Part shown: piece by piece, positions 7,578 through 48,869 of the stretch
Layout of the letters: each line of letters opens with the position of its first letter
How positions within the stretch are numbered: position 1 is the first letter of the stretch
Assembly: GCF_037201965.1 (NCBI RefSeq)
Contig: NZ_CP147518.1
Location: 2,355,001-2,419,000, forward strand
Length of the DNA: 64,000 bases
From: Spirosoma sp. SC4-14
Lineage (GTDB): Bacteria > Bacteroidota > Bacteroidia > Cytophagales > Spirosomataceae
Reading direction: 5' to 3'
Position numbers and translations under genes: made by a program
Notes under the pieces: model-generated
Databases searched by the model: none
Told to the model about the DNA's origin: nothing
Seen by the model: the letters and a program-made list of their open reading frames with translations, nothing else

Positions 7578-7629
7578 AAGCTCCGAAGGAGTAACAGGCA
7601 TAGCCTATTCTGTTACTCCTTCGGAGCTT
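7578..7629. repeat. Perfect 20-bp inverted repeat (dispersed-hairpin type)
   Basis: Arms 7578-7597 (AAGCTCCGAAGGAGTAACAG) and 7610-7629 are exact reverse complements around a 12-base loop. The arm itself contains the smaller palindrome CTCCGAAGGAG. It lies in the 294-base gap between the AraC gene and the first nitrilase gene, both on the minus strand. No T-run follows on the minus strand, so it is not a classical terminator; I suspect a dispersed repeat. Confidence 0.75.
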
Positions 7630-7694: not shown

Positions 7695-7708
7695 ATGACC
7701 AATGACCG
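7695..7708. repeat. Two tandem heptamers ATGACCA ATGACCG
   Basis: Two seven-base units in tandem. ACCAATGAC inside them (7699-7707) is the reverse complement of GTCATTGGT at 7480-7488, so the pair brackets the gap that also holds the 20-bp hairpin. Same word family as the repeats near 11.9, 13.5, 46.7 and 48.1 kb. Confidence 0.6.
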
Positions 7709-10735: not shown

Positions 10736-10744
10736 GATGGTCAA

Positions 10745-10824
10745 TGATGGGTTATGAATGATAAATGATGAATTTTACTACAAAAGTTGCAATCTATTCA
10801 TCATTTATCATTCATAACTCATCA
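10745..10824. repeat. 28-bp-arm inverted repeat of heptamers between divergent moeA and moaC
   Basis: Left arm 10745-10772 and right arm 10797-10824 are reverse complements with one mismatch in 28. Each arm divides exactly into four heptamers: TGATGGG, TTATGAA, TGATAAA, TGATGAA on the left; TTCATCA, TTTATCA, TTCATAA, CTCATCA on the right. The 24-base loop starts TTTTACTAC. It fills the whole divergent promoter region, so it cannot be a terminator; it could be a regulatory site or a repeat that landed there. Confidence 0.85.
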
Positions 10825-10833
10825 TTAATCTTC

Positions 10834-11328
10834 ATGGATTCTCTCTCTCATATCAACGCTGAAGGTAATCCGTCGATGGTCGATGTGGGGGCAAAGCGGA
10901 TTTCCCGCCGTACGGCGCGTGCCCGCAGCGTAGTTGCACTGGGCCCCAACATCATGCAGCATCTGTCGCAGACTGACGGTTCGGCTGCGGATATACAAAC
11001 CCGTAAAGGTCCCGTTTTTCAGACAGCTATTATTGCCGGAACAATGGCGGCCAAACGCACCGACGACCTCATTCCGCTTTGTCATTCGCTGGGGCTCGAT
11101 AACTGCCAGATTACGGTTACGGTCGATGGGTCTGATGCAGTGATCGACTGCCTGGTTTCGACCGAAGGAAAAACCGGTGTTGAAATGGAAGCGCTCGTTG
11201 GTGCGTCGGTGGCTGCGCTGACGGTCTATGATATGTGTAAAGCCCTGTCGCACGACATTATTATCAGGGAAACCAAACTGATGGAAAAAACGGGTGGAAA
11301 ACGCGATTTCAAACGGGACGATGCTTAA
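10834..11328 (+). CDS. moaC: Cyclic pyranopterin monophosphate synthase MoaC
   Basis: 164 aa with the ATG at 10834, matching the family length of about 160; an in-frame ATG at 10765 lies in the inverted repeat and would add an unconserved tail. Family signatures: MVDVGAKRISRRTARA at the start, TRKGPVFQTAIIAGTMAAKR, the substrate site LIPLCHSLGLDN, and GKTGVEMEALVGASVAALTV near the end. With MoaA it makes cyclic pyranopterin from GTP, the first step of molybdenum cofactor synthesis. It overlaps mobA by eight bases (its GCTTAA stop region shares the mobA ATG), so the two are translationally coupled. moaA, moaD and moaE are not in the window. Confidence 0.95.
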   Translation: MDSLSHINAEGNPSMVDVGAKRISRRTARARSVVALGPNIMQHLSQTDGSAADIQTRKGPVFQTAIIAGTMAAKRTDDLIPLCHSLGLDNCQITVTVDGSDAVIDCLVSTEGKTGVEMEALVGASVAALTVYDMCKALSHDIIIRETKLMEKTGGKRDFKRDDA

Positions 11329-11902
11329 TGGGCTGGTGCTGATTGGCGGACGAAGCCGACGGATGGGGGAGGATAAATCGATACTGGTTTATCACAACAA
11401 GCCCCAGCGCGAATACCTGACCGATTTGTTACGACATTATTGCGATACGGTTTATTGGTCGGTTAATGCCAAACAGGCTGGCGAACTACCCAATACCGAA
11501 CAGCCACTGATTGTCGATGCGTTCGATGAGTTGATGGGGCCGCTGAACGGGATTATGTCGGCTATGCAAACCGTGCCCAATGCGGCCTGGCTGGTGGTTG
11601 CCTGCGATATGCCATTGCTATCGAATCGAACTCTTGATAGGCTGGTGGCTGCTCGTAATCCGGCAAAACGGGCAACGGCCTTTTACGATTCGGATGGGCG
11701 ATTTCCGGAGCCGCTGCTTTGTATCTGGGAACCTACTATGAAAACGGCATTGCAGAAATCACTGGCCGATGGGTATTATTCGCCCCGGCAAATGCTAATG
11801 GTGAACGATGTTGAACTGCTACATCCGCCCGACATTCGTGAGTTGCTGAACATTAACGACCCGGAAACCAAAGCCGCTTTTATAAATGACATTGGTCATT
11901 AG
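11321..11902 (+). CDS. mobA: Molybdenum cofactor guanylyltransferase-like protein MobA
   Basis: About 193 aa, starting at the ATG that overlaps the moaC stop. The N-terminus has the MobA nucleotidyltransferase loop LIGGRSRRMGEDKS; PLNGIMSAMQ, VVACDMPLLS and FPEPLLCIWEP follow. MobA adds GMP to molybdopterin to give the guanine-dinucleotide form used by DMSO-reductase-family enzymes, which fits the FdhF/YdeP-type enzyme at 33.5 kb. A CTP-specific MocA-like role cannot be ruled out but the sequence looks closer to MobA. The last codons (FINDIGH) lie inside the left arm of a 21-bp inverted repeat. Confidence 0.88.
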   Translation: MLNGLVLIGGRSRRMGEDKSILVYHNKPQREYLTDLLRHYCDTVYWSVNAKQAGELPNTEQPLIVDAFDELMGPLNGIMSAMQTVPNAAWLVVACDMPLLSNRTLDRLVAARNPAKRATAFYDSDGRFPEPLLCIWEPTMKTALQKSLADGYYSPRQMLMVNDVELLHPPDIRELLNINDPETKAAFINDIGH

Positions 11903-11934
11903 GCATTACTACCAATGACCAATGTCATTTATAA
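11880..11934. terminator. 21-bp-arm inverted repeat at the end of mobA, probable bidirectional terminator
   Basis: Arms 11880-11900 and 11914-11934 are exact reverse complements; the loop has 13 bases. The right arm is three heptamers AATGACC, AATGTCA, TTTATAA. It lies between convergent genes (mobA and the SusD gene, stop at 11937), where a shared terminator would be expected. The left arm is within mobA coding sequence. Confidence 0.7.
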
Positions 11935-11936
11935 CC

Positions 11937-13487
11937 TTACTTCACATCCCAGAAAATTGTAGTTGTGAGTTTATCGTTCGCACTTACGCTATTATAGTTT
12001 GCAGTGTTGAGTGAGCTTTCACTGGTCGGGTAGAGCAAACGAGTGGGCGGTGTTTTCGCCGTGGCTGAACCATTATCGGTTGGAAATGTAAAACCGATGA
12101 GTTTTGTCCGGCGCGCTTCCGCCCAGGCCTGTGTGGCCTGCATGACCGTATAGTCGACCCATTTCTGTGTGGCAATCTTCTTCAGATTGTCGGTTCCGTA
12201 AGCGATTGATGGCGCGGCCAGAAACGCCGTGATTTGCGCTTCGGTAGGTGCTGTATCTTTTTTGCCGGTATAACTACTGTTGTTATTGATGCCATACCAG
12301 AACGCAATGGACTGACGAATACCGCTTTCGTAGGCTGTTTTAGCATTGCCCAGCCCCCACCGTTCATAAGCTTCGGCTTTGTTGAACCAGCTTTCGGCCG
12401 AGGTCATCAAAATACCCGGAAACAGGTTGTTTTCGGAGAACGTAGTCGAATCCCAGCGCGAAACAGCGTTGGCCGTTTGGGCGGCCGTTAGTTGAGTTGC
12501 ATTCCAGGTGTTGACAACGCCCGTGTATTTGCCCGACGCATTAGTTGTAAAATAAACCGGTAGCCGGGGGTCGTTGGCCGGGGCCATTACATTGTCGATC
12601 AGATAGGACGGAGCATATGGATTTACGCCAAAGCCATTTCGCATATCGTTCACGGCAACCAGATTGCTGGTCGTTGTGGCCGGCTGAATAGTGATACTTT
12701 CGCTGGCTGAATCGACTAGTGGGTACTGGTTCGGATTGTTCAGAATAGTCGTAACCAGCGCTTTAGCCGTAGTTTCATCGGCATTGGAAATTCGCATGGC
12801 CAAACGAAGTATCAACGAGTTGCAATACTTTCGCCACTTCAGAATGCTGCCTTTGTTTACATAGTCATACGAGGTAAACTGAGTTGTATAAAAGCTCGAA
12901 GGAGTGGCCGTGGCCAGATAATCTGAAATTCGTTTCAGATCAGTCAGCATGTCGGTATACGTCGTTTTTGAGTTGTCGTAGGTGGCCAGGCTAATGGTAC
13001 CCTGTGCATTCAACTGGCCAGCGGTTTTGAACGGAATGTCGCCCCACAGGTCGATCATCTGCCCTGTCTGATCGTAGAGAAAGATCCGTGCCGTTTCCAG
13101 AAAGAGTTGTAGACCGGCTTTGTCTTCAGCTCCTAACGTGTTATATACTTTTTCGAGCTCCCGATATCGGGCCATCGTTTGTGTATAATACACATTCCAT
13201 CGGTCGGAGTTGTAGGCCGTAACTTGTTCGTACACGCCGTTTGTGGTAGTAAAGCCATTGAGCTGGCTATAGGTACCAATTTCCGGAATCAGGAATGTAT
13301 ATAAATTCCAATAGCGAGGGCTAACGCGTTCGTTGAATAGCATACCCGCCCACAGCCGTTGAACATCGGCCGAAACCGCACCGCTGGGGTTAATATACGC
13401 ACTGTCGATTTCGGATTGCTTACAGCCGGTCAGGAACGTTCCGAGGCTTAGCAGACCAAGCAAACAGGTAATGATAATTCGTTTCAT
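11937..13487 (-). CDS. SusD/RagB-family outer-membrane lipoprotein (SusD-like 2 group)
   Basis: 516 aa. Lipoprotein signal with lipobox LTGC at about residue 22. The body has the helical TPR-like organisation of SusD proteins: an early conserved RYWNLYTFLIPEIG, QLFLETARIFLYDQTGQMIDLWGDIPF, and the C-terminal ESWFNKAEAYERWG with EAQITAFLAAPSIAY and WVDYTVMQATQAWAEARRT. It sits over the SusC barrel on the cell surface and captures the ligand. It lies 97 bases downstream of the SusC gene on the same strand; the pair is one uptake system. No sigma/anti-sigma pair or glycoside hydrolase is adjacent, so the substrate (glycan, peptide or other) stays open. Confidence 0.92.
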   Translation of the reverse strand: MKRIIITCLLGLLSLGTFLTGCKQSEIDSAYINPSGAVSADVQRLWAGMLFNERVSPRYWNLYTFLIPEIGTYSQLNGFTTTNGVYEQVTAYNSDRWNVYYTQTMARYRELEKVYNTLGAEDKAGLQLFLETARIFLYDQTGQMIDLWGDIPFKTAGQLNAQGTISLATYDNSKTTYTDMLTDLKRISDYLATATPSSFYTTQFTSYDYVNKGSILKWRKYCNSLILRLAMRISNADETTAKALVTTILNNPNQYPLVDSASESITIQPATTTSNLVAVNDMRNGFGVNPYAPSYLIDNVMAPANDPRLPVYFTTNASGKYTGVVNTWNATQLTAAQTANAVSRWDSTTFSENNLFPGILMTSAESWFNKAEAYERWGLGNAKTAYESGIRQSIAFWYGINNNSSYTGKKDTAPTEAQITAFLAAPSIAYGTDNLKKIATQKWVDYTVMQATQAWAEARRTKLIGFTFPTDNGSATAKTPPTRLLYPTSESSLNTANYNSVSANDKLTTTIFWDVK

Positions 13488-13533
13488 ATCAACACTAGTA
13501 TGATTCAGTTAATGAGGTCAATTTGGGGTTCTT

Positions 13534-13582
13534 TTATTCGTCATTGGTCTTCTGTTATGGATTACTCTAATGACGAATGACT
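13534..13582. repeat. Heptamer-repeat spacer between the SusC and SusD genes
   Basis: 49 bases that can be read as seven heptamers: TTATTCG, TCATTGG, TCTTCTG, TTATGGA, TTACTCT, AATGACG, AATGACT. ATTCGTCATT (13536-13545) pairs with AATGACGAAT (13569-13578). A hairpin here could lower SusD expression relative to SusC, or do nothing. Confidence 0.55.
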
Positions 13583-13584
13583 AA

Positions 13585-16500
13585 CTAGAAGGAGAACCGG
13601 ATACTTCCTCCCATCGAGCGAGTAGCGGCATTGCCTGCTCCTACTGATGTAGCTCTTGATACCCAGTTGGTGCCGACACCTTCTTCAGGATCAAGACCGG
13701 GCAGGGTTTTGTAGAAGTAAAACAGGTTTCTGCCGTAGGCCGAAATCGTCAGATTCTGCATTTTTAACTTCGACCGCAAACGCACCGGGAATGAGTACGA
13801 CAGCGAAATCTCACGCAGTTTGATGTAATTGTTGTCGAAAACGGCGTCTTTGTAGGTGATGTTCGAGCCGGAGCCTGGATAGCCACCCCAGTTGTAGTGA
13901 TACCGATAATATTGCGGAGCTTCTACCACTACTTTGTTTTCTTCACCGCTTTCGGTAACGCCTTTGGCAATGATACCGTCCGTGAATACTTTTTGGCCGT
14001 TGGGGCCAGCCGCCGTACCAGCCGCAACCTGAACCAGTTTACCCGTGCCATCGTCGTAGTACGAAAGCCCACCGTGTTCGGCATCACGACCGAAGATCGA
14101 GTTTTTGTACATACCGGAACCGGTGCCGTACAGACGCGATAGCGAAATGATCTGACCACCCCATACAAAGTCGGTCAGCACGTTGAGCGAGAAATTTCTG
14201 TAGGTCAGCGTGTTCATCAAACCACCCGAAAACTTCGACTGGATATTTCCGAAATTGACCAGTTTGCTGTAGTCAATCACATAGAACCCATCTTCGCCAA
14301 CGATATAGTTACCCTGAGCGTCTTTTTTATGATCGTATCCCCAGATGCTACCAGCGGCTTCGCCCGGTTTGGCATACACATACAGCGATCCGTTGTCCTT
14401 GTTGTCGAGCGTAAGTTGTTCCAGACCATTAGCCAGCGAAATTACTTTGCCCCGGTTTACGGCGAAGTTCAGACGGGCATCCCACGAAAAATCTTTGGTT
14501 TTAACTGGCGAGCCATATAACGACAGTTCAACACCGTAGTTCCGCATATCGCCTACATTTACCAGTACGCTGCTTGCACCAATTGTCGATGGTGTACCGA
14601 GGCTGGTGATCTGATCTTTGATCTTGTTGTTGTAGTAGGTCAGGTCGAAGCCGAGCCGGTTCGATAGGAAGCGATTCTCTAACCCGATTTCAAATTCGGT
14701 CTTCATCTCGTTTTTCAGGTTCTTGTTCCCATAGCCCGATGATGCTGGATAGAGGTAGGGCACACCGTCGAGACTTCCCGACGAATAGACAATGTTGGAG
14801 ATATATCGATCGGGTGGGTTTCCAACAATACCCCATGCACCTCTCAGTTTGCTGTACGATACGAACTTAGGCATCTGAAAGGCATTGCTCAATTCGAGCG
14901 AAGTGCTGACGCCGGGATAGTAGAAGGTGTTGTTACCCGGTGCCAGTGTCGACGAACGCTCCCGACGCAGGGTTCCTTCTACAAACAGGAAGTTGTTGTA
15001 TTCCAGATTGACAATTCCAAACACTCCATCTTTGAGCAGATAGCCGATGGATGAGCTCCCCGACGGCGGATTGTTCTTGCTCGCGCTGAGGCTAAACCAG
15101 TTTTCCGACGTTAGTCCATCGCGGGTACCTGCCGTATTGGTTGTGTATTTCTCCCGGCGTCCCTGATAGCCAACCGAAACCGTTGCGTTAAACTTGTCGG
15201 TTAGTTTCCGTTCGTAGCTCAGCAACAGGTCGCCATACGTAAAGGTCGATGTGTTGGCACTGGTTCCGTAGTAACCGCTGGCTCCCGCCGACAATTGTTG
15301 TGTGCTTCGTTCTTTGGTTTCCTGATAGTAGCTGGTGTAATCGACACCCATCCGGCCACGTAAATTTAGCCCTTTGGCAATATTGTAGTTCAGCATAGCC
15401 GATGGCATAAAACGGTTCGAGGTTTCGTCGTAGCTGTTGGCAAGCTGATTCCATAAGAAGTCGAGGAAGTCTTTCGCGCGGATGTTGTATTTCAGACGCT
15501 CGTCGGTATCCAGGTTAGAGTTGTAGTCAACCCATTTGTAGCCTTTCGATGTCTGGTATTTGTCGAAATAAACATCCATATAGTCGGCCGGACTGAAGAA
15601 ACCGCCAAAGTTGTTAGTCAGATAATAAATCTGGCGGGGACGGTTGTGAACTTTCTCGTTCACGTAGTTCATCACCAGATTCAACGTCAGTTTGGGGGTG
15701 ATCGAATACTTCGAATTCAGGTTAAAGGTGTTTTTCTGCTGCTGACCTCCAATCTGAATCCCCTGATAATCGTTGCGGGTATACGAAATCCGGTAGTTGC
15801 CTTTGTCAGTTGAGTTGCTCAGCGCTACGTTAGCGATCAGGCTGCTACCGGTCCGGTAGAACTGTTTCCAGTTATTGGCATGTGAAACATACGGACGAAT
15901 CTGTCCATCCCACCAGTATACGTCGCTGCCGTCCATCTTCGGGCCAAACTGAGCGTAAGACCGGAAGTTTGGATACTTCACCGACTGGCCGTTGACGGTC
16001 GTATGAATCCAGCCGTCGTCGTCGGCACCAAACGATGCTTTATTAACTGAACGTTCGTAACCAGGTCCCCATTCTGTTTGCAGATCGGGTGCTGTGGAAA
16101 CTTTTTCGACGTTGGCCGATAGGTTTACATCAACGCCCAAGCCACGGCTGGCGCGACCCTGACCATTTTTGGTCGTAATCACAATAACACCAAAGTTGGC
16201 ATCGGAACCATAGAGTGCCGAAGCCGCAGCACCTTTCAGAATGTTGATGTCCTGAATGTTTTCAGGGTTAATATCCAGCAAACCGTTTCCGTTAATTTTC
16301 TGGTTGTTCCAATATCCTTCGTTGTTAGCGTCGCCGTTTCGAACAATGACCCCGTCGACAACAATCAGTGGCTGGCGCTGGTAGCCAATGGAGTTTACCC
16401 CCCGAATCTGAATACCAACGGCGCTGGTAGCTCCGCCCGTGTTGGCATTGATAACCACGCCGGGGGCTTTACCGTAAAGTGCCGACGCGAAATTGGTTGG

Positions 16501-16908
16501 GGATGTTTTGATGATGTTTTCGCCCGAAACCTGCGTAGTGGCATAACCTAGTTTCCGCTGCTCTTTCGGAATACCAAGGGCCGTAACAACCACTTCATTC
16601 AGCACTTTTTCGTCTTCCTGTAGCGTAATGTCGACAATTGTGCGCCCGTTGAGCGGTATCGTTTGAGTAACGTACCCAATAAACGAAGCAACAATGGTTC
16701 CGCGCGTGTCGGGAACAGTTAAGGTGTACTTGCCATTGGCGTCGGTTACGGTTCCGGCTGTGGTGCCCTGTACTATAATGGACACGCCTGGCAGGTTTTC
16801 GCCTACCCCTGAACTCACTCTACCCGTTATCGTTGCTTTTTGAGCAACGGCCTGAAGGCTAAAAAACAGCAGCCAGAGCAATACTGTTTTGGGTAAATAG
16901 TTTCCCAT
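13585..16908 (-). CDS. SusC/RagA-family TonB-linked outer-membrane protein
   Basis: 1107 aa. A signal peptide ends near AVAQ (residue 23). A CarboxypepD_reg-like domain (about 25-105) is followed by the SusC hallmark LQEDEKVLNEVVVTALG, then the plug with GVQIRGVNSIGYQRQPL and ENIQDINILKGAAASALYG, and a long beta-barrel ending in GGSIRFSF. It forms the transport barrel under the SusD lid and takes energy from TonB. First gene of a two-gene unit with the SusD gene. The upstream region is AT-rich, but I cannot fix a promoter box with confidence. Confidence 0.94.
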   Translation of the reverse strand: MGNYLPKTVLLWLLFFSLQAVAQKATITGRVSSGVGENLPGVSIIVQGTTAGTVTDANGKYTLTVPDTRGTIVASFIGYVTQTIPLNGRTIVDITLQEDEKVLNEVVVTALGIPKEQRKLGYATTQVSGENIIKTSPTNFASALYGKAPGVVINANTGGATSAVGIQIRGVNSIGYQRQPLIVVDGVIVRNGDANNEGYWNNQKINGNGLLDINPENIQDINILKGAAASALYGSDANFGVIVITTKNGQGRASRGLGVDVNLSANVEKVSTAPDLQTEWGPGYERSVNKASFGADDDGWIHTTVNGQSVKYPNFRSYAQFGPKMDGSDVYWWDGQIRPYVSHANNWKQFYRTGSSLIANVALSNSTDKGNYRISYTRNDYQGIQIGGQQQKNTFNLNSKYSITPKLTLNLVMNYVNEKVHNRPRQIYYLTNNFGGFFSPADYMDVYFDKYQTSKGYKWVDYNSNLDTDERLKYNIRAKDFLDFLWNQLANSYDETSNRFMPSAMLNYNIAKGLNLRGRMGVDYTSYYQETKERSTQQLSAGASGYYGTSANTSTFTYGDLLLSYERKLTDKFNATVSVGYQGRREKYTTNTAGTRDGLTSENWFSLSASKNNPPSGSSSIGYLLKDGVFGIVNLEYNNFLFVEGTLRRERSSTLAPGNNTFYYPGVSTSLELSNAFQMPKFVSYSKLRGAWGIVGNPPDRYISNIVYSSGSLDGVPYLYPASSGYGNKNLKNEMKTEFEIGLENRFLSNRLGFDLTYYNNKIKDQITSLGTPSTIGASSVLVNVGDMRNYGVELSLYGSPVKTKDFSWDARLNFAVNRGKVISLANGLEQLTLDNKDNGSLYVYAKPGEAAGSIWGYDHKKDAQGNYIVGEDGFYVIDYSKLVNFGNIQSKFSGGLMNTLTYRNFSLNVLTDFVWGGQIISLSRLYGTGSGMYKNSIFGRDAEHGGLSYYDDGTGKLVQVAAGTAAGPNGQKVFTDGIIAKGVTESGEENKVVVEAPQYYRYHYNWGGYPGSGSNITYKDAVFDNNYIKLREISLSYSFPVRLRSKLKMQNLTISAYGRNLFYFYKTLPGLDPEEGVGTNWVSRATSVGAGNAATRSMGGSIRFSF

Positions 16909-22430: not shown

Positions 22431-23282
22431 ATGTCTCAAAAAATTGTTCGCGTTGGCGACATCGAATGCGGGACCGATGAGTTATTCCTCATCAGCGGCC
22501 CCTGCGTAATCGAAGACGAAAAAATTATGATGACCGTAGCCGAGCAACTCCGCGAAATTCAGGAGCGGCTGGGCATCAAAATCATCTATAAATCGTCCTT
22601 TCAGAAGGACAACCGGTCGAGCCTCAACTACTACAATGGCCCCGGTCTCGAAAAAGGCATTCAGGTGCTGGCTAAAGTGAAGGAGCAATTTGGCTTCCCG
22701 GTGCTGACCGATGTTCACTATCCCGACCAGTGTGCACCCGTAGCCGAAGTGGTCGATGTGATCCAGATTCCGGCTTATCTGTGTATGCAAACCATGTTGG
22801 TGACGGCTGCTGCCAAGACCGGCCGCGTCGTCAACGTCAAGCATGGGCAGTTTCTGGCACCGGAAAACATGAAGCATCCGGTCAAAAAAATCGAAGATTC
22901 GGGTAATGATCAGATCATTCTGACCGAGCGCGGCTACACCTTCGGCTATAACGATCTGGTGGTCGATCCCCGTTCGTTCTATCACATGGCCCGCACCAAC
23001 TACCCGGTAGTGTTCGACGTAACGCACGCCATTCGGAAATACGGTATTCCGTCGGCCGATGCCAAAGGCGGTGCCCGCGAATACCTGCCCGTTCTGGCTC
23101 GCGCGGGTGTGGCTGCCGGTGTCGATGGCCTGTTTGTTGAAACGCATACCTGCCCGTCGGAAGCCCTTTGCGATGCTGCCAGCCAACTCGACATCCGTTA
23201 CCTCGAAGAGTTCCTGAAACCGCTGCTCGAACTGCATGCCGTTGAGGTAAAATATCGGAATACACTTCCAGAACTGGCGTAA
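22431..23282 (+). CDS. kdsA: 3-deoxy-8-phosphooctulonate synthase KdsA
   Basis: 283 aa TIM-barrel enzyme that joins phosphoenolpyruvate and arabinose 5-phosphate to make Kdo 8-phosphate. Landmarks in order: LISGPCVIEDE, KSSFQKDNRSSLNYYNGPGL, DVHYPDQCAPVAEVVDVIQI, VNVKHGQFLAPENMKHP, LTERGYTFGYNDLVVD, FDVTHAIRKYG, VETHTCPSEALCDAASQL. The cysteine of GPC together with the His of DVTH, the Glu of VETH and the Asp of CDAAS suggests the metal-dependent class, as in Aquifex. It is the third intact gene of the kdn/kds operon. An 18-bp hairpin follows the stop. Confidence 0.96.
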   Translation: MSQKIVRVGDIECGTDELFLISGPCVIEDEKIMMTVAEQLREIQERLGIKIIYKSSFQKDNRSSLNYYNGPGLEKGIQVLAKVKEQFGFPVLTDVHYPDQCAPVAEVVDVIQIPAYLCMQTMLVTAAAKTGRVVNVKHGQFLAPENMKHPVKKIEDSGNDQIILTERGYTFGYNDLVVDPRSFYHMARTNYPVVFDVTHAIRKYGIPSADAKGGAREYLPVLARAGVAAGVDGLFVETHTCPSEALCDAASQLDIRYLEEFLKPLLELHAVEVKYRNTLPELA

Positions 23283-23287
23283 ATTAA

Positions 23288-23334
23288 GTGAAGAATGAAG
23301 ACCGGGCCACCGGTGCGGTCTTCATTCTTCACTA
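23288..23334. repeat. 18-bp perfect inverted repeat between kdsA and the KdsC-like gene
   Basis: Arms 23288-23305 (AGTGAAGAATGAAGACCG) and 23317-23334, loop of 11 bases that can add a few pairs. AGTGAAG and AATGAAG are tandem heptamers. It fills the short gap inside the operon and may tune expression or cause partial termination before the next ATG at 23341. Confidence 0.7.
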
Positions 23335-23340
23335 CTTCAA

Positions 23341-24036
23341 ATGATCGAACAAATCTTCACTGATCTGGGTGGGCAGTTTGTTACGCCTGCCGATGTACTT
23401 ACTGAAAAACTGAAAACCATCCGGGCCATTGTGTTCGACTGGGACGGCGTTTTTAACGACGGTATCAAAACCGAAGCAGGGAGTAGTTCCTTTAGCGAAA
23501 TCGATTCAATGGGTACAAACCTGCTTCGGTTTGGTTTTTGGCTGCATCATGGCGGCCAATTGCCTGCCGTGGCCATCGTTACCGGTGTCGACAATGCGCT
23601 GGCCGATAAACTGGTTGGCCGCGAACATTTTCATGCCTGTTATTCACAGGCTAAGAATAAAGTAGAGGTGTTGGCTCATTTTCTGGATCAGCACAAGCTG
23701 CAACCGCAGCAGGTGGCTTTTTTCTTCGATGATGCGCTCGATTTGTCGGTTGCCGAAGTGGCAGGTGTTCGAATCATGATTCGCCGGAAAGCTAATCCAC
23801 TTTTTACCGATTATGTCATTCGCAACGGACATGTCGACTACATTACGGGTAATGAAAGTGGTCATTTTGCTGTTCGGGAAGGCTGTGAACTCATGCTGGG
23901 GCTGCTCGGTCAGTTCGAAACCGTCATGAACGAACGTCTGCGCTATCGCCCCGTTTACGATCAGTATTACCAGCAACGGCAAGCTATCGACCCCAGTTAC
24001 TGGACCGTTGGCCCTACTGGACCGGAACCGAAATAA
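23341..24036 (+). CDS. kdsC: KdsC-like HAD phosphatase (Kdo 8-phosphate phosphatase candidate)
   Basis: 231 aa. HAD motifs: nucleophile region IVFDWDGVFND, motif II VAIVTGVDN, lysine in AKNKVEVL, and motif III-type acids in FFFDDALDLSVAEV, followed by HFAVREGCELMLGL that resembles the KdsC end. It is about 60 residues longer than typical KdsC, with an N-terminal extension of 30 residues and a C-terminal tail rich in Tyr, Arg and Gln. It lies between kdsA and kdsB, where the phosphatase step is needed. The HAD fold is certain; the Kdo 8-phosphate substrate is inferred from place and motif spacing. Confidence 0.75.
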   Translation: MIEQIFTDLGGQFVTPADVLTEKLKTIRAIVFDWDGVFNDGIKTEAGSSSFSEIDSMGTNLLRFGFWLHHGGQLPAVAIVTGVDNALADKLVGREHFHACYSQAKNKVEVLAHFLDQHKLQPQQVAFFFDDALDLSVAEVAGVRIMIRRKANPLFTDYVIRNGHVDYITGNESGHFAVREGCELMLGLLGQFETVMNERLRYRPVYDQYYQQRQAIDPSYWTVGPTGPEPK

Positions 24037-24070
24037 ACATCCAGCATCCAGCGTCTACTATCTAGCATCT
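24036..24070 (+). repeat. Five tandem degenerate heptamers before kdsB
   Basis: AACATCC, AGCATCC, AGCGTCT, ACTATCT, AGCATCT in exact seven-base phase, ending one base before the kdsB ATG (24072). Unlike the other heptamer tracts it does not form a hairpin. It fills the whole intergenic gap, starting at the last base of the upstream stop codon. Confidence 0.7.
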
Positions 24071-24071
24071 C

Positions 24072-26070: not shown

Positions 26071-26188
26071 AAGCCCCCTAACCCCCAAAGGGGGAAGTGC
26101 TGCCGCTTAGTTGCTGTCGCATTCGAATAGCTACCTTTGGCAGCAAAAGCTGGCGGCAGCACTTCCCCCTTTGGGGGTTAGGGGGCTT
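26071..26188. repeat. Perfect 36-bp inverted repeat containing C/G-run palindromes
   Basis: Arms 26071-26106 and 26153-26188 are exact reverse complements over 36 bases; the loop is 46 bases, and TTGCTG/CAGCAA inside it can extend the stem. The arm opens with AAGCCCCCTAACCCCCAAAG and continues into GGGGGAAG. Similar C-run/G-run words are, from memory, frequent between genes in many Bacteroidota. It fills the divergent region between the GT87-like gene and thiamine pyrophosphokinase. Confidence 0.85.
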
Positions 26189-42883: not shown

Positions 42884-42970
42884 GTCCCAAAAGTACGGTA
42901 ACACTTTGTGCAACAGGTAGTCAAAAAGAGAATTTATTAGTCATTCCTATATTTCTTTGCTTATTACCCA

Positions 42971-43813
42971 ATGACAAATCAACCAATGACCAATTTTATG
43001 CTAACGGTTGGCGATAACCTCTATTGGACACGGCGATTGCTGGGCGAACACCTCCGAAGGTTAGGTCTTCGGGCGGGCGACGCCGTGATGGTTCATGCCG
43101 GTTTGCGGGCTGTAGGACCCATGCTTAATGGCCCCGATACATTAATTGACGCCATTCGGGATGTTATTGGTAATCAGGGGACATTGCTTTGTTATGTAAA
43201 CTGGGAGCAGCAGTATGAAGATGCGCTGAATGAATTGGGGCAGATCCCAGCCGTGCTAAAACCGGATATTGCTCCCTTCAACACATTTAGTTCCCGTGCC
43301 AGCCGTGATCATGGTGTTTTTGCTGAATTTGTACGCACAACGCCCGGTGCGCTACGGAGTCAGAATCCAGGCGCTTCGGTTGCGGCTATTGGTCGGCTGG
43401 CCAAGTGGTTTACAACTGATCATCCATTCGATTATGGTTATGGGCCTGGCTCTCCGTTTGAAAAACTGGTGTTGACCGATGGGAAAATTCTGATGATTGG
43501 GGCACCGCTGGACACAATGAGCATCTTGCACCATGCCGAACATCTGGCGCAGATTCCCGGCAAACGTATTCGGCATATGGAGGTTCCACTACAACTTGAC
43601 GGTGAGGTTTGTTGGCGTATGATTGAAGAGTTTGATACAGCCGATCCGGTTGTAGATGGACTTGACGCCGATTATTTCAAAACAATTGTCGAAGACTTTC
43701 TGAATACCGAAAGTGGACTGATAGGAAGGGTTGGAGGTGCCAGTGCAGTCATTGTTTCTGCCAAAGCCATTGTTCAATTTGCCGTTCGATGGCTGGAGCA
43801 ACGGTTTGGTTGA
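42971..43813 (+). CDS. AAC(3)-family N-acetyltransferase
   Basis: About 280 aa. Family features of aminoglycoside 3-N-acetyltransferases: LRAGDAVMVHAGLRAVG, the catalytic region with a GPGSPFEKLV segment, and ILHHAEHLAQIPGKRIR with the expected histidine. The fold is sure. Whether it acts on antibiotics, or on another amine as many chromosomal relatives do, cannot be told. Two starts are possible: ATG 42971 lies in a heptamer repeat (AATGACA, ACCAATG) and ATG 42998 begins the conserved MLTVGDNLYWT; the second may be the original start. It is divergent from the metal-efflux locus and has no partner gene. Confidence 0.82.
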   Translation: MTNQPMTNFMLTVGDNLYWTRRLLGEHLRRLGLRAGDAVMVHAGLRAVGPMLNGPDTLIDAIRDVIGNQGTLLCYVNWEQQYEDALNELGQIPAVLKPDIAPFNTFSSRASRDHGVFAEFVRTTPGALRSQNPGASVAAIGRLAKWFTTDHPFDYGYGPGSPFEKLVLTDGKILMIGAPLDTMSILHHAEHLAQIPGKRIRHMEVPLQLDGEVCWRMIEEFDTADPVVDGLDADYFKTIVEDFLNTESGLIGRVGGASAVIVSAKAIVQFAVRWLEQRFG

Positions 43814-46698: not shown

Positions 46699-46767
46699 TA
46701 ACCAGTTGCTGGTCATTGATCTGTAGCGCATAGAATGAGCCAATGATCAATGACCAGCAACTGGTTA
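46699..46767. terminator. 23-bp-arm inverted repeat of heptamers between convergent genes
   Basis: Arms 46699-46721 and 46745-46767 match exactly, with a 23-base loop. The right part reads CCAATGA, TCAATGA, CCAGCAA, CTGGTTA (46740-46767) in seven-base phase. The right arm includes the MFS stop codon (46765-46767). A role as bidirectional terminator is likely from position. Confidence 0.7.
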
Positions 46768-48030
46768 TTCTTCGAGATAATCCAACTCTTTATTGTGAGT
46801 TTCGGGTATTGTCAGGATGGCATAAAACCCGAAAATAAAGCTAATCAGGCCAACTACGGCCCCGGCATTAATGACATCCAGTTGCGGTTTTAGAGCCTGG
46901 TAACCCAGCGTCATTGGAATCAGAAAGGCCCGTACCATATTAGGGATAGTGGTGGCGGCCGTAGCACGCAGGTTAGTACCAAACTGCTCGGCACTAATGG
47001 TCACAAACATGGCCCAGTAGCCATTGCCGAACCCCAGCACTACACAGAGACCATAGAAAAGGGGAGTACTTTTAATTCCCAGATATAAATAAACGATGCT
47101 GGCTATGAGAGCAATCGTCATGAACAGGCTAATCGCTTTTTTACGTGATTGCAGCGCCTGACTAACAAACCCGTTTGACAGATCGCCGATACACATACCA
47201 ATGTATAACCAGGTGATGGCCAGACCGGGCTGTATTTCCTGGGCAATACCTAACGCTTTCCCGAATTCGTTACTGAACGAAGCCAGAATGCCGGTAATAA
47301 ACCAGGTTGGAATTCCGATAGCAATGCATTTGAGATAGCGACTGAGCCGATCAGCATTCGTGAAGAAGGAGAAGAAATTGCCCCGACTAATGTTCTTTTG
47401 CCCGGTAATGCTGGTGAACATCCCCGATTCAATCACCCCCACTCGTAATAATAAGAGGCCAAACCCTAAACCACCGCCTACGAAAAAGGTGGTTTCCCAG
47501 TCGAACAGTTTAACGGTAAAATAAGCAACTATGGCGCCCAGAACGCCAACGGCCGCTACCAGTGAGGTAGCTAGGGCTCGTTTTTCTTTCGGAACGATTT
47601 CGCTCACGAGTGTAATGCCTGCGCCGAGTTCACCCGCCAGCCCAACACCGGCCACAAACCGCATGAGAGCGTAGTAGGTGAGTGGGTCCATGAACGTAAC
47701 GTGCTTTACAAAGCCGCAGGCAATATTGGCAATGGAATAGGTGATGATCGATCCAAACAGAACCGACAGACGTCCGCGCTTATCGCCCAAAATACCCCAT
47801 AGAATGCCGCCAAGCAGCAGGCCCGCCATTTGCCAGTTCAAAATACGCCCACCAATCGTTGAGATCTGCTCGGTAGTAAGGCCCATATCTTTCAGGCTTG
47901 GGACGCGAACAATACCAAAAAGAAGCAAATCATAAATATCAACGAAGTACCCCAAGGCTGCCACAATAACGGGCAAACTGAATAAGCGGACCGTAGTGGC
48001 TGGTTTGGGTGAAGTTGTAGGAAGAACCAT
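46765..48030 (-). CDS. MFS transporter
   Basis: 421 aa with about 12 hydrophobic segments. The loop between helices 2 and 3 has the MFS signature GILGDKRGRLSVL, and helix 4-5 has RFVAGVGLAGELGAG. The arrangement fits the metabolite:H+ symporter / sugar-phosphate-like branch of the superfamily more than drug exporters, but the solute cannot be named. A role in uptake of a small organic acid is possible given the neighbouring exported esterase on the other strand. It is separated from the PepSY gene upstream by a 49-base heptamer hairpin. Confidence 0.85.
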   Translation of the reverse strand: MVLPTTSPKPATTVRLFSLPVIVAALGYFVDIYDLLLFGIVRVPSLKDMGLTTEQISTIGGRILNWQMAGLLLGGILWGILGDKRGRLSVLFGSIITYSIANIACGFVKHVTFMDPLTYYALMRFVAGVGLAGELGAGITLVSEIVPKEKRALATSLVAAVGVLGAIVAYFTVKLFDWETTFFVGGGLGFGLLLLRVGVIESGMFTSITGQKNISRGNFFSFFTNADRLSRYLKCIAIGIPTWFITGILASFSNEFGKALGIAQEIQPGLAITWLYIGMCIGDLSNGFVSQALQSRKKAISLFMTIALIASIVYLYLGIKSTPLFYGLCVVLGFGNGYWAMFVTISAEQFGTNLRATAATTIPNMVRAFLIPMTLGYQALKPQLDVINAGAVVGLISFIFGFYAILTIPETHNKELDYLEE

Positions 48031-48100
48031 GCAGGATGAAGAGATGGGCGATATGATTCTTCAAAAGTACAGAATATCGAAATAATATTCTGAATAGTTG

Positions 48101-48150
48101 GTTGGTCACTACTCATTGGTTGAACTGATGACCAATGAGTAGTGACCAAC
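48101..48150. repeat. 20-bp perfect inverted repeat made of seven heptamers
   Basis: Arms 48101-48120 and 48131-48150, loop of ten bases. From 48102 the 49 bases divide into TTGGTCA, CTACTCA, TTGGTTG, AACTGAT, GACCAAT, GAGTAGT, GACCAAC. It lies directly after the stop of the PepSY gene (48153) and before the MFS gene, both on the minus strand, so it could terminate the PepSY/ApbE transcript. Confidence 0.75.
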
Positions 48151-48152
48151 CT

Positions 48153-48869
48153 CTAAACAACCAGCAGCCAGTATGCCAGTCCGGTAACAACGGCACCAAG
48201 AAGCATCCAGCCAAGTCCACTCACCCGCCGTTTTTTTAGAACAAGCAGGAGCGCCAGACCCGTTACAGAAACCAGTGTCATAAACACGGCGGCTATGTCG
48301 ATCACCCATGCCCAACCCTGGCCCGTATCGCGGCCTTTATGCAGGTCGTTCAGTACGGCAACCAGCCCCATTTTGGTTTCTGTAACCTCATACGTTCCGT
48401 CTGAGCGTTTCACAAAAGCATCGGCTGAGTAACCCGGTCCATGAAACGAAAGCGAACATTCGCGGTCGTCGATCCGAAACTCACTGACGCTTCCCTTTAG
48501 CTGGTGCGTTGCCCGCAGGTACTCCACAATAGCCAGCTTATTAACCGTAGCGGTATCAGTACCAGCCACCCACCTTGGGTTCACCTTTCCTTTCAGGTCG
48601 GTTGTGACCGTAGCGTCGTCGAACCAGTCGGCATGGTTGAGTGTCAGGCCCGTTACGGCAAAAAAGAGAACCAAAACAAAACTTACTACCGAAAGGTACA
48701 AATGCAGCCACCGGGCCAGCCCGGCCCAGCGAATACCTCCTTGTGGTATAGACGTTGGCTGACGACGTTCGGGCTTCCCGTTAGCGAGTGGCTGCTTTTT
48801 CGCGGTAATCCAGGGCTGCGGCTGCAACTTCGACATTTCCGTTGAGAGTTTGTTGTTTGGTTTTTCCAT
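48153..48869 (-). CDS. PepSY-associated transmembrane protein
   Basis: 238 aa. After a polar N-terminus the first helix (WLHLYLSVVSFVLVLFFAVT) is followed by GLTLNHADWF, the usual PepSY_TM signature, then a periplasmic PepSY-like domain (ISF-type strands, SFHGPGYSADAFV) and two or three C-terminal helices (WVIDIAAVFMTLVSVTGLAL and WMLLGAVVTGLAYWLLV). Members sit in the inner membrane and are thought to pass electrons through haem or flavin, often with ferric reductase-like systems. It overlaps the ApbE-DUF2271 gene by 89 bases (56 if the second ATG is used), so it is tightly coupled to it. Histidines near both helices could bind haem. Confidence 0.82.
   Translation of the reverse strand: MEKPNNKLSTEMSKLQPQPWITAKKQPLANGKPERRQPTSIPQGGIRWAGLARWLHLYLSVVSFVLVLFFAVTGLTLNHADWFDDATVTTDLKGKVNPRWVAGTDTATVNKLAIVEYLRATHQLKGSVSEFRIDDRECSLSFHGPGYSADAFVKRSDGTYEVTETKMGLVAVLNDLHKGRDTGQGWAWVIDIAAVFMTLVSVTGLALLLVLKKRRVSGLGWMLLGAVVTGLAYWLLVV

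Follow-up and report, generated by a model that had tools for sequence, protein, structure and literature searches.

Hairpin stems of complementary 7-base repeats (Class I TDNGATT / Class II NNTGAGT) are described for the P6b element of the Nostoc trnL intron, where whole stems have been exchanged for another heptad class while the structure was kept (PMC4476775). Going by the available text of that report, this is the closest parallel that we found to the palindromes of Spirosoma sp. SC4-14 treated here, which are likewise heptad-built hairpin stems that are replaced as a whole. However, P6b is one group I intron site of cyanobacteria, whereas the Spirosoma palindromes occupy many intergenic sites between protein genes and use many vocabularies.

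Direct repeats of another heptamer, TAACTGA, are reported from Beggiatoaceae, Cyanobacteria and five Bacteroidetes (PMC4679880). They resemble the Spirosoma units in being intergenic, seven bases long and sporadic over distant lineages, but according to the accessible part of that paper they are direct and lie in the main genome mostly just upstream of starts, while the arms described here are inverted and fill stop-to-start gaps. An earlier note on this DNA, made from the sequence alone, knew of no heptanucleotide repeats described in Cytophagales; heptamers in Bacteroidetes are in print with that different word.

REPINs are doublets in inverted orientation whose spacer is less conserved; they are predicted to form hairpins and occur in many extragenic copies (PMC3116915). 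Inverted doublets of one polarity, predicted hairpins and many extragenic copies were also found in Spirosoma sp. SC4-14. In contrast to REPINs as portrayed in the available text, the heptad families are without a found cognate RAYT that carries the same repeats, and their arms are degenerate in 7/8-base phase. Template switching (quasipalindrome correction) with homogenisation of the arms and inversion of the spacer has been traced for perfect inverted repeats of yeast genes by a study that also cites template switching in proteobacteria (PMC8604942), and the signature is in print for RNA genes as well (PMC8794818). In relatives of Spirosoma sp. SC4-14, intergenic palindromes that are mostly not built of heptads likewise show concerted arm changes and some inverted spacers; unlike the yeast repeats, as far as that report presents them, the palindromes of the genus are coupled with dispersed families of repeat words. 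Judged from the open-access literature alone this class of palindromes is undescribed, and no related description of the heptad words or of Spirosoma intergenic palindromes was found there.

Seven-base palindromes in the window

The window is a stretch of 64 kb (C1:2355001-2419000) of a genome of 8.10 Mb in two contigs. Seven places at which the earlier note had reported tracts in seven-base phase were inspected by their letters, checked against a repeat search, and their arms were measured again. Palindromes could be identified at five of them, one with arms of a mere 10 bases. The heptad units are degenerate (AATGACC, AATGACT, AATGACA, AATGATG, AATGATA, AGTGAAG); the statements that the tracts share a vocabulary and that the units differ in sequence while the arms stay complementary are both right. 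Coordinates refer to the window, and no strand is assigned unless it is given.

The palindrome at 10743..10826, made of AATGATG/AATGATA words, lies between the divergent genes moeA and moaC. Its arms (10743-10773/10796-10826) comprise 31 bases with one mismatch and include the 28-base arms that had been claimed. Arms of 21 bases, the second length claimed, are perfect at two sites. One is a GTCATT..AATGAC-type palindrome (11880..11934, arms 11880-11900/11914-11934) at a convergent junction, which overlaps the end of a MobA-like gene; the other (48100..48151, arms 48100-48120/48131-48151) adjoins the 3' end of a PepSY_TM-like gene (48153-48869, minus strand). A heptad-containing palindrome at 46699..46767, just past a carboxylesterase-family stop at a convergent junction, has 23 perfect outer bases (46699-46721/46745-46767) and appears in the repeat search as 33 bases at 88%. 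The 10-base arms (13536-13545/13569-13578) belong to a short heptad palindrome at 13534..13582 between co-directional SusD-like and SusC-like genes. Of the remaining two places, 7695..7708 (plus strand) consists of two direct AATGACC-type units with no palindrome, and 42968-42995 is nearly of that kind, being part of a series of direct AATGACA/AATGACC units at uneven spacing (42936..42996) with a weak inverted copy of 10 bases and one mismatch (42936-42945/42985-42994).

One heptad palindrome (AGTGAAG-AATGAAG, 23287..23333) had not been listed. With 18 perfect pairs it fills the gap between the stop of a DAHP-synthase-family gene at 23282 and the next start at 23341. Direct heptads of the CATCCAG type, with no palindrome, are located at 24037..24071 (plus strand), after the stop of the gene downstream of that gap.

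Rfam gave no matches in the window at the gathering score, and a promoter consensus scan of 7-24 kb found 16 sites versus 18.4 in shuffles. Some further arrangements were seen. A perfect 36-base palindrome, CCCCCTAACCCCCAAAGGGGG, with a spacer of 46 bases is located at 26071-26188, and a similar one is found in S3. The SusC/SusD-like gene pair (11937-16908), which has heptad palindromes at its end and between both genes, is missing at the syntenic place in G033. In the region 46765-48030 an MFS gene lies between the carboxylesterase-family and PepSY_TM-like genes with a palindrome on either side; in G001, G015 and G022 these two genes adjoin each other, with one perfect palindrome of 31 to 38 bases between them.

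Excess over chance and palindrome families

Genome-wide, AATGACNAATGA occurs 83 times, the reversed pattern 5 times. Each of 35 other genomes of the genus contains 1 to 16 copies (in total 241 versus 185 for the reversed control), so this vocabulary was expanded on the lineage of Spirosoma sp. SC4-14.

Periodicity was analysed in a genome sample of 1.264 Mb, consisting of the window and three 400-kb stretches, in which genes were called de novo and starts may be off. The self-match of intergenic DNA (134,593 bases in 769 segments) reaches z values of 13.1 at lag 7, 6.4 at lag 14 and 6.6 at lag 21, which is the excess at seven and its multiples that defines heptanucleotide tandem repeats. Lags 3 (11.0), 4 (15.7), 8 (12.0), 11 (7.3) and 15 (6.9) are in excess too; with lags 3, 4 and 8 this high, seven is therefore not the sole period. 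A strong lag-7 tract is present in 26 of the 769 segments versus 0.6 in shuffles, and a strong lag-8 tract in 22 versus 0.8. Stems scoring at least 16 number 111, of which 103 are intergenic, while one Markov-2 resample of equal length yielded none.

Within the 64 kb alone the seven-base signal is weak, as only one tract (10793-10834) passes the lag-7 threshold, and this would suit a chance or low-complexity artefact. That reading is refuted by the genome-wide controls, namely the counts of AATGACNAATGA, the intergenic lag excess and the stems found against none in the resample, and we give it practically no chance; the recurring tracts in seven-base phase are real.

Several palindrome families occur, of which the heptads are one; their units are 7, 8 or 9 bases long. 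By eye we distinguish stems of AATGAC words, AATGATG, GGTTTAY with an inner GGTTGCTCCGC, and AGTGAAA, further the period-8 families AAAGAGTG and AATGATTG, a period-9 AATCCTG type and A-tract/T-tract terminators. AATGANNAATGANNAATGA is present in 65 of 296 genomes of the phylum. The reversed control is abundant in some genomes, e.g. with 43+31 copies in G171, and other lineages therefore carry other heptads.

Location relative to genes

Among the 31 period-7 stems scoring at least 14, 23 lie between co-directional genes, 7 at convergent and 1 at divergent junctions; the 664 gaps of at least 60 bases that serve as baseline comprise 451 co-directional, 84 convergent and 129 divergent ones. The distance from a period-7 stem to the stop codon has a median of 5 bases (31 of 37 at 20 or less), and the distance to the start codon a median of 16 bases, with 14 of 25 at 20 or less compared with 7 of 67 for other stems. 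At most 40 bases of the gap lie outside the palindrome for 26 of 37 co-directional period-7 or period-8 stems, versus 14 of 59 other stems (Fisher p 1.4e-5). Most period-7/8 palindromes begin close to a stop codon, and many occupy the space up to the following start.

The proximity to stop codons and the seven convergent cases are what ordinary intrinsic terminators would show, and a T-rich tail follows 7 of 19 period-8 stems, no more rarely than other stems (29 of 80). A terminator consensus scan of 7-24 kb, which like the promoter scan adds little, found 27 sites versus 19.0 in shuffles (sd 4.9). However, most period-7 stems are located between co-directional genes, their next start is frequently within the 20 bases mentioned above while this holds for 0 of 6 A-tract/T-tract hairpins, and a T-rich tail follows only 5 of 30, compared with 15 of 21 A-tract/T-tract hairpins. 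The run of T after the stem that marks an intrinsic terminator is not a feature of the period-7 and period-8 stems as a class. That termination alone does not explain the palindromes, as the earlier note held, agrees with the co-directional locations and the scarcity of T-rich tails; we consider it very unlikely that they are ordinary intrinsic terminators.

Orthologous junctions in relatives

Five junctions were compared among relatives, all picked because Spirosoma sp. SC4-14 has a palindrome there. For the gap behind the DAHP-synthase-family gene (PF00793), 30 loci were fetched from a search of 36 genomes and 26 of them compared; the other 4 gave one gene only. A stem scoring at least 9 is present in all 26 genomes and one scoring at least 12 in 24 of 26, with 0.00 in shuffles; 13 of these stems have period-7 arms and 1 has period-8 arms. 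The words vary widely despite 90-100% identity of the upstream protein. At the moeA/moaC junction 10 of 22 genomes have a stem at score 12, and the three remaining junctions have such stems in 5 of 17, 15 of 25 and 12 of 23 genomes. For these four junctions the shuffled controls gave 0.10 or less. At one of the four the gap has shrunk in two genomes, to just 3 bases in one and 2 in the other, of which the one with 2 bases is a doubtful orthologue (upstream identity 40%). In distant genomes, stems are found on both sides of the comparison at 1 to 3 junctions of the 41, 38, 18 and 16 compared, with an arm similarity of at most 0.39.

Orthologous gaps in the genus thus often hold stems with other words, and the comparison that the earlier note had called for gives stems in between 5 of 17 and 24 of 26 genomes. 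Corresponding gaps of relatives frequently contain palindromes written in very different words. This suggests that the matching of the arms is due more to errors in DNA copying than to natural selection.

The same data bear on a selected RNA hairpin that would act between cistrons in translational coupling or mRNA processing, e.g. as a substrate of RNase III, and for which any pairing sequence would serve. The location between stop and start, the near perfection of the stems and the one junction with stems of different words in almost every genome are in accordance with such an element, while the several orthologous gaps that are stemless or only 2-3 bases long are not.

Concerted changes of both arms

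G004 and G005, a close pair of species of the genus, have a median protein identity of 97% and were compared at 169 orthologous junctions. Stems ascertained in G005 only were projected on G004, where 30 of 34 could be aligned and 4 were set aside. Of the 568 pairs, 509 are the same, 22 changed on one side, 36 changed on both sides to another Watson-Crick pair and 1 changed on both sides without pairing. After the partner had been slid by 1-3 columns, there were 1-4 two-sided Watson-Crick changes and 91-102 one-sided ones. The reverse direction with stems from G004 (36 of 38 alignable, 2 set aside) gave for 670 pairs 586 same, 48 one-sided, 35 two-sided Watson-Crick and 1 non-pairing, compared with 0-3 two-sided Watson-Crick and 114-134 one-sided changes for the slid partner. 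Transversions make up 18 of the 36 and 15 of the 35 double changes. No single G-U intermediate can bridge a double transversion.

In co-directional gaps, read on the sense strand, the one-sided changes comprise 6 G-T, 6 A-C and 2 other cases, and in the reverse direction 11, 8 and 18. Among sense-strand mismatches, G-T and A-C number 27 versus 22 in G000 and G033 together and 10 versus 8 in G004 and G005. A wobble asymmetry as a sign of selection on RNA was therefore rejected, as both mismatches are about equally frequent.

Spacers were compared for the 34 of 47 stem pairs with arms at least 60% alike: 24 keep their orientation, 5 are flipped, 1 is unclear and 4 are too short. Two of the five flips are clear (junctions 94 and 80) and three are weak. 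One more clear flip was found between G001 and G022, where the arms of 38 and 34 bases are both perfect and differ at five aligned places, therefore on both sides. The spacer inversions were seen on non-heptad palindromes.

In this close pair, changes in the stems of intergenic palindromes affect the two arms jointly and include transversions, with inversion of some of the spacers. Together with the near equality of G-T and A-C these are marks of DNA template switching. The classes contribute unequally, as "other" palindromes account for 23 and 27 of the aligned stems, A-tract/T-tract hairpins for 4 and 6, and periodic stems for 3 each way. In these three periodic stems one-sided changes (5 and 12) outnumber two-sided ones (1 and 5), and this tells against carrying the template-switch argument over to the heptads in full.

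For the RNA hairpin, the barely elevated G-T count, the transversions among the double changes and the inverted spacers are all unfavourable, and so are the one-sided changes, which are not rare in the small number of periodic stems available from G004/G005. We therefore regard a hairpin selected at the RNA level as rather unlikely.

Proposed template switching in operon gaps

The explanation that we slightly favour is that of dispersed palindromes with arms of degenerate 7- or 8-base units, located mostly in stop-start or stop-stop gaps, whose arms are matched by template switching. During replication one arm would serve as the template for its partner arm, and the same switching would act on the heptad palindromes. 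Slippage and the nested insertion of new palindromes may exchange the vocabulary and so lead to different words in orthologous gaps. Inserts could persist in operon gaps if the hairpin, by folding out, keeps the stop-to-start distance nearly unchanged; in one screen, however, structure just downstream of a stop went with less coupling, according to the available text of PMC12548453.

The double changes with their transversions, the spacer flips, the swap of vocabulary at the DAHP-synthase gap, the filling of gaps and the near-empty gaps argue for template switching. Against it, selection that tolerates no mismatch could likewise yield double changes, stems at the four other junctions are found in only part of the genomes and are rare at the junctions of distant species, and the excess of one-sided changes in the three periodic stems has been mentioned. 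The earlier note had left it between a copied inverted duplication and pairing kept by selection; of the two, copying is favoured, mainly by way of the non-heptad palindromes. When stems covary at a conserved position, this is usually taken as proof of a selected RNA structure. If template switching is the cause, covariation would be a poor test of RNA function in such genomes.

Polarity and occurrence in other phyla

Of the 22 most frequent 7-base arm words in the 1.264-Mb sample, 19 are confined to one arm (5' or 3'), with the reservation that the words overlap, are hence not independent, and include AAAAAGG, the A-tract of terminators. One-sided words are e.g. TTTATGG (13 to 0), TGAATGA (10 to 0) and TTGGTCA (9 to 0), and the exceptions are GTTTATG (12 to 1), TGATTGA (10 to 1) and TTTGTCA (7 to 2).

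A scan of named genomes for GTCATTNGTCATT-N4-34-AATGACNAATGAC gave at least 118 stretches. Among the 80 matches listed, 61 are by their titles from cyanobacteria (mostly Nostoc and kin), 12 from Bacteroidota, 4 from Planctomycetes, 2 from Desulfobacterota and 1 from Nitrospinae. Among the 118 loci recorded, 17 have no gene on one flank and 3 matches lie inside an ORF; a stop-side gene is found at 95, where by crude ORF calls the nearest stop has a median distance of 11 bases and lies within 30 in 77 of 95. GTCATT..AATGAC hairpins occur in Nostoc, Planctomycetes, Desulfobacteraceae and Nitrospinae. In 20 chosen genomes they number 424 placements, some overlapping inside one hairpin, versus 3 for the reversed control and 0 for the opposite polarity; 19 outside genomes were chosen for holding the first polarity, and therefore only the within-genome ratio counts. 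Close pairs of the opposite polarity, at least three, are present in members of the genus that lack the expansion (G002, G008, G015).

With a polarity nearly fixed and the same words at many sites, local inverted duplication alone is not sufficient, and fixed polarity together with a common vocabulary is not predicted by local template switching either. For the spread of one vocabulary with one polarity, REPIN-like copying of hairpins would be the likeliest kind. A REPIN-like family of mobile hairpins, copied whole by a transposase acting in trans, would also agree with the confinement of the AATGACNAATGA expansion to this species, with palindromes present in just one of two close species, and with inner stems that look similar in several hairpins of a Prolixibacteraceae genome. 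The 11 GTCATT-hairpin loops of Spirosoma sp. SC4-14, however, have little in common beyond the heptads. Moreover, the only PF01797 (Y1 transposase) match of the genome, at C1:2293155, is flanked by different REPs, of the GCCCCGAAGGGG type, and no heptads were seen by eye beside it; a RAYT as disperser of the heptads was rejected for this reason. As an explanation of the palindromes, whole copying of this kind is possible, if somewhat doubtful.

A wider proposal, which we think unlikely, is a class of mobile hairpins spanning Bacteroidota, Cyanobacteria, Planctomycetes, Desulfobacteraceae and Nitrospinae, with arms in 7/8-base words of fixed polarity, in which an unknown enzyme would copy the arms and not the loops and which would land between stop and start. 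That identical words keep to one polarity even in distant phyla poses a question separate from the matching of arms, which can now be put to the test.

Some single hairpins were recorded besides. At 7578-7629 of the window lies a palindrome of the CTCCGAAGGAG type, which by eye is like the GCCCCGAAGGGG REPs beside the Y1 transposase match. In G342 (Saprospiraceae) one hairpin occurs twice (C5:17-63 and C53:151483-151529) with opposite orientations of the loop. Junction 148 of G005 (L172-L191 region) contains a AGGACTTTCGC...GTGCC palindrome that is absent in G004 and has GTTTT on either side, like a target duplication; similar palindromes are found at several other junctions.
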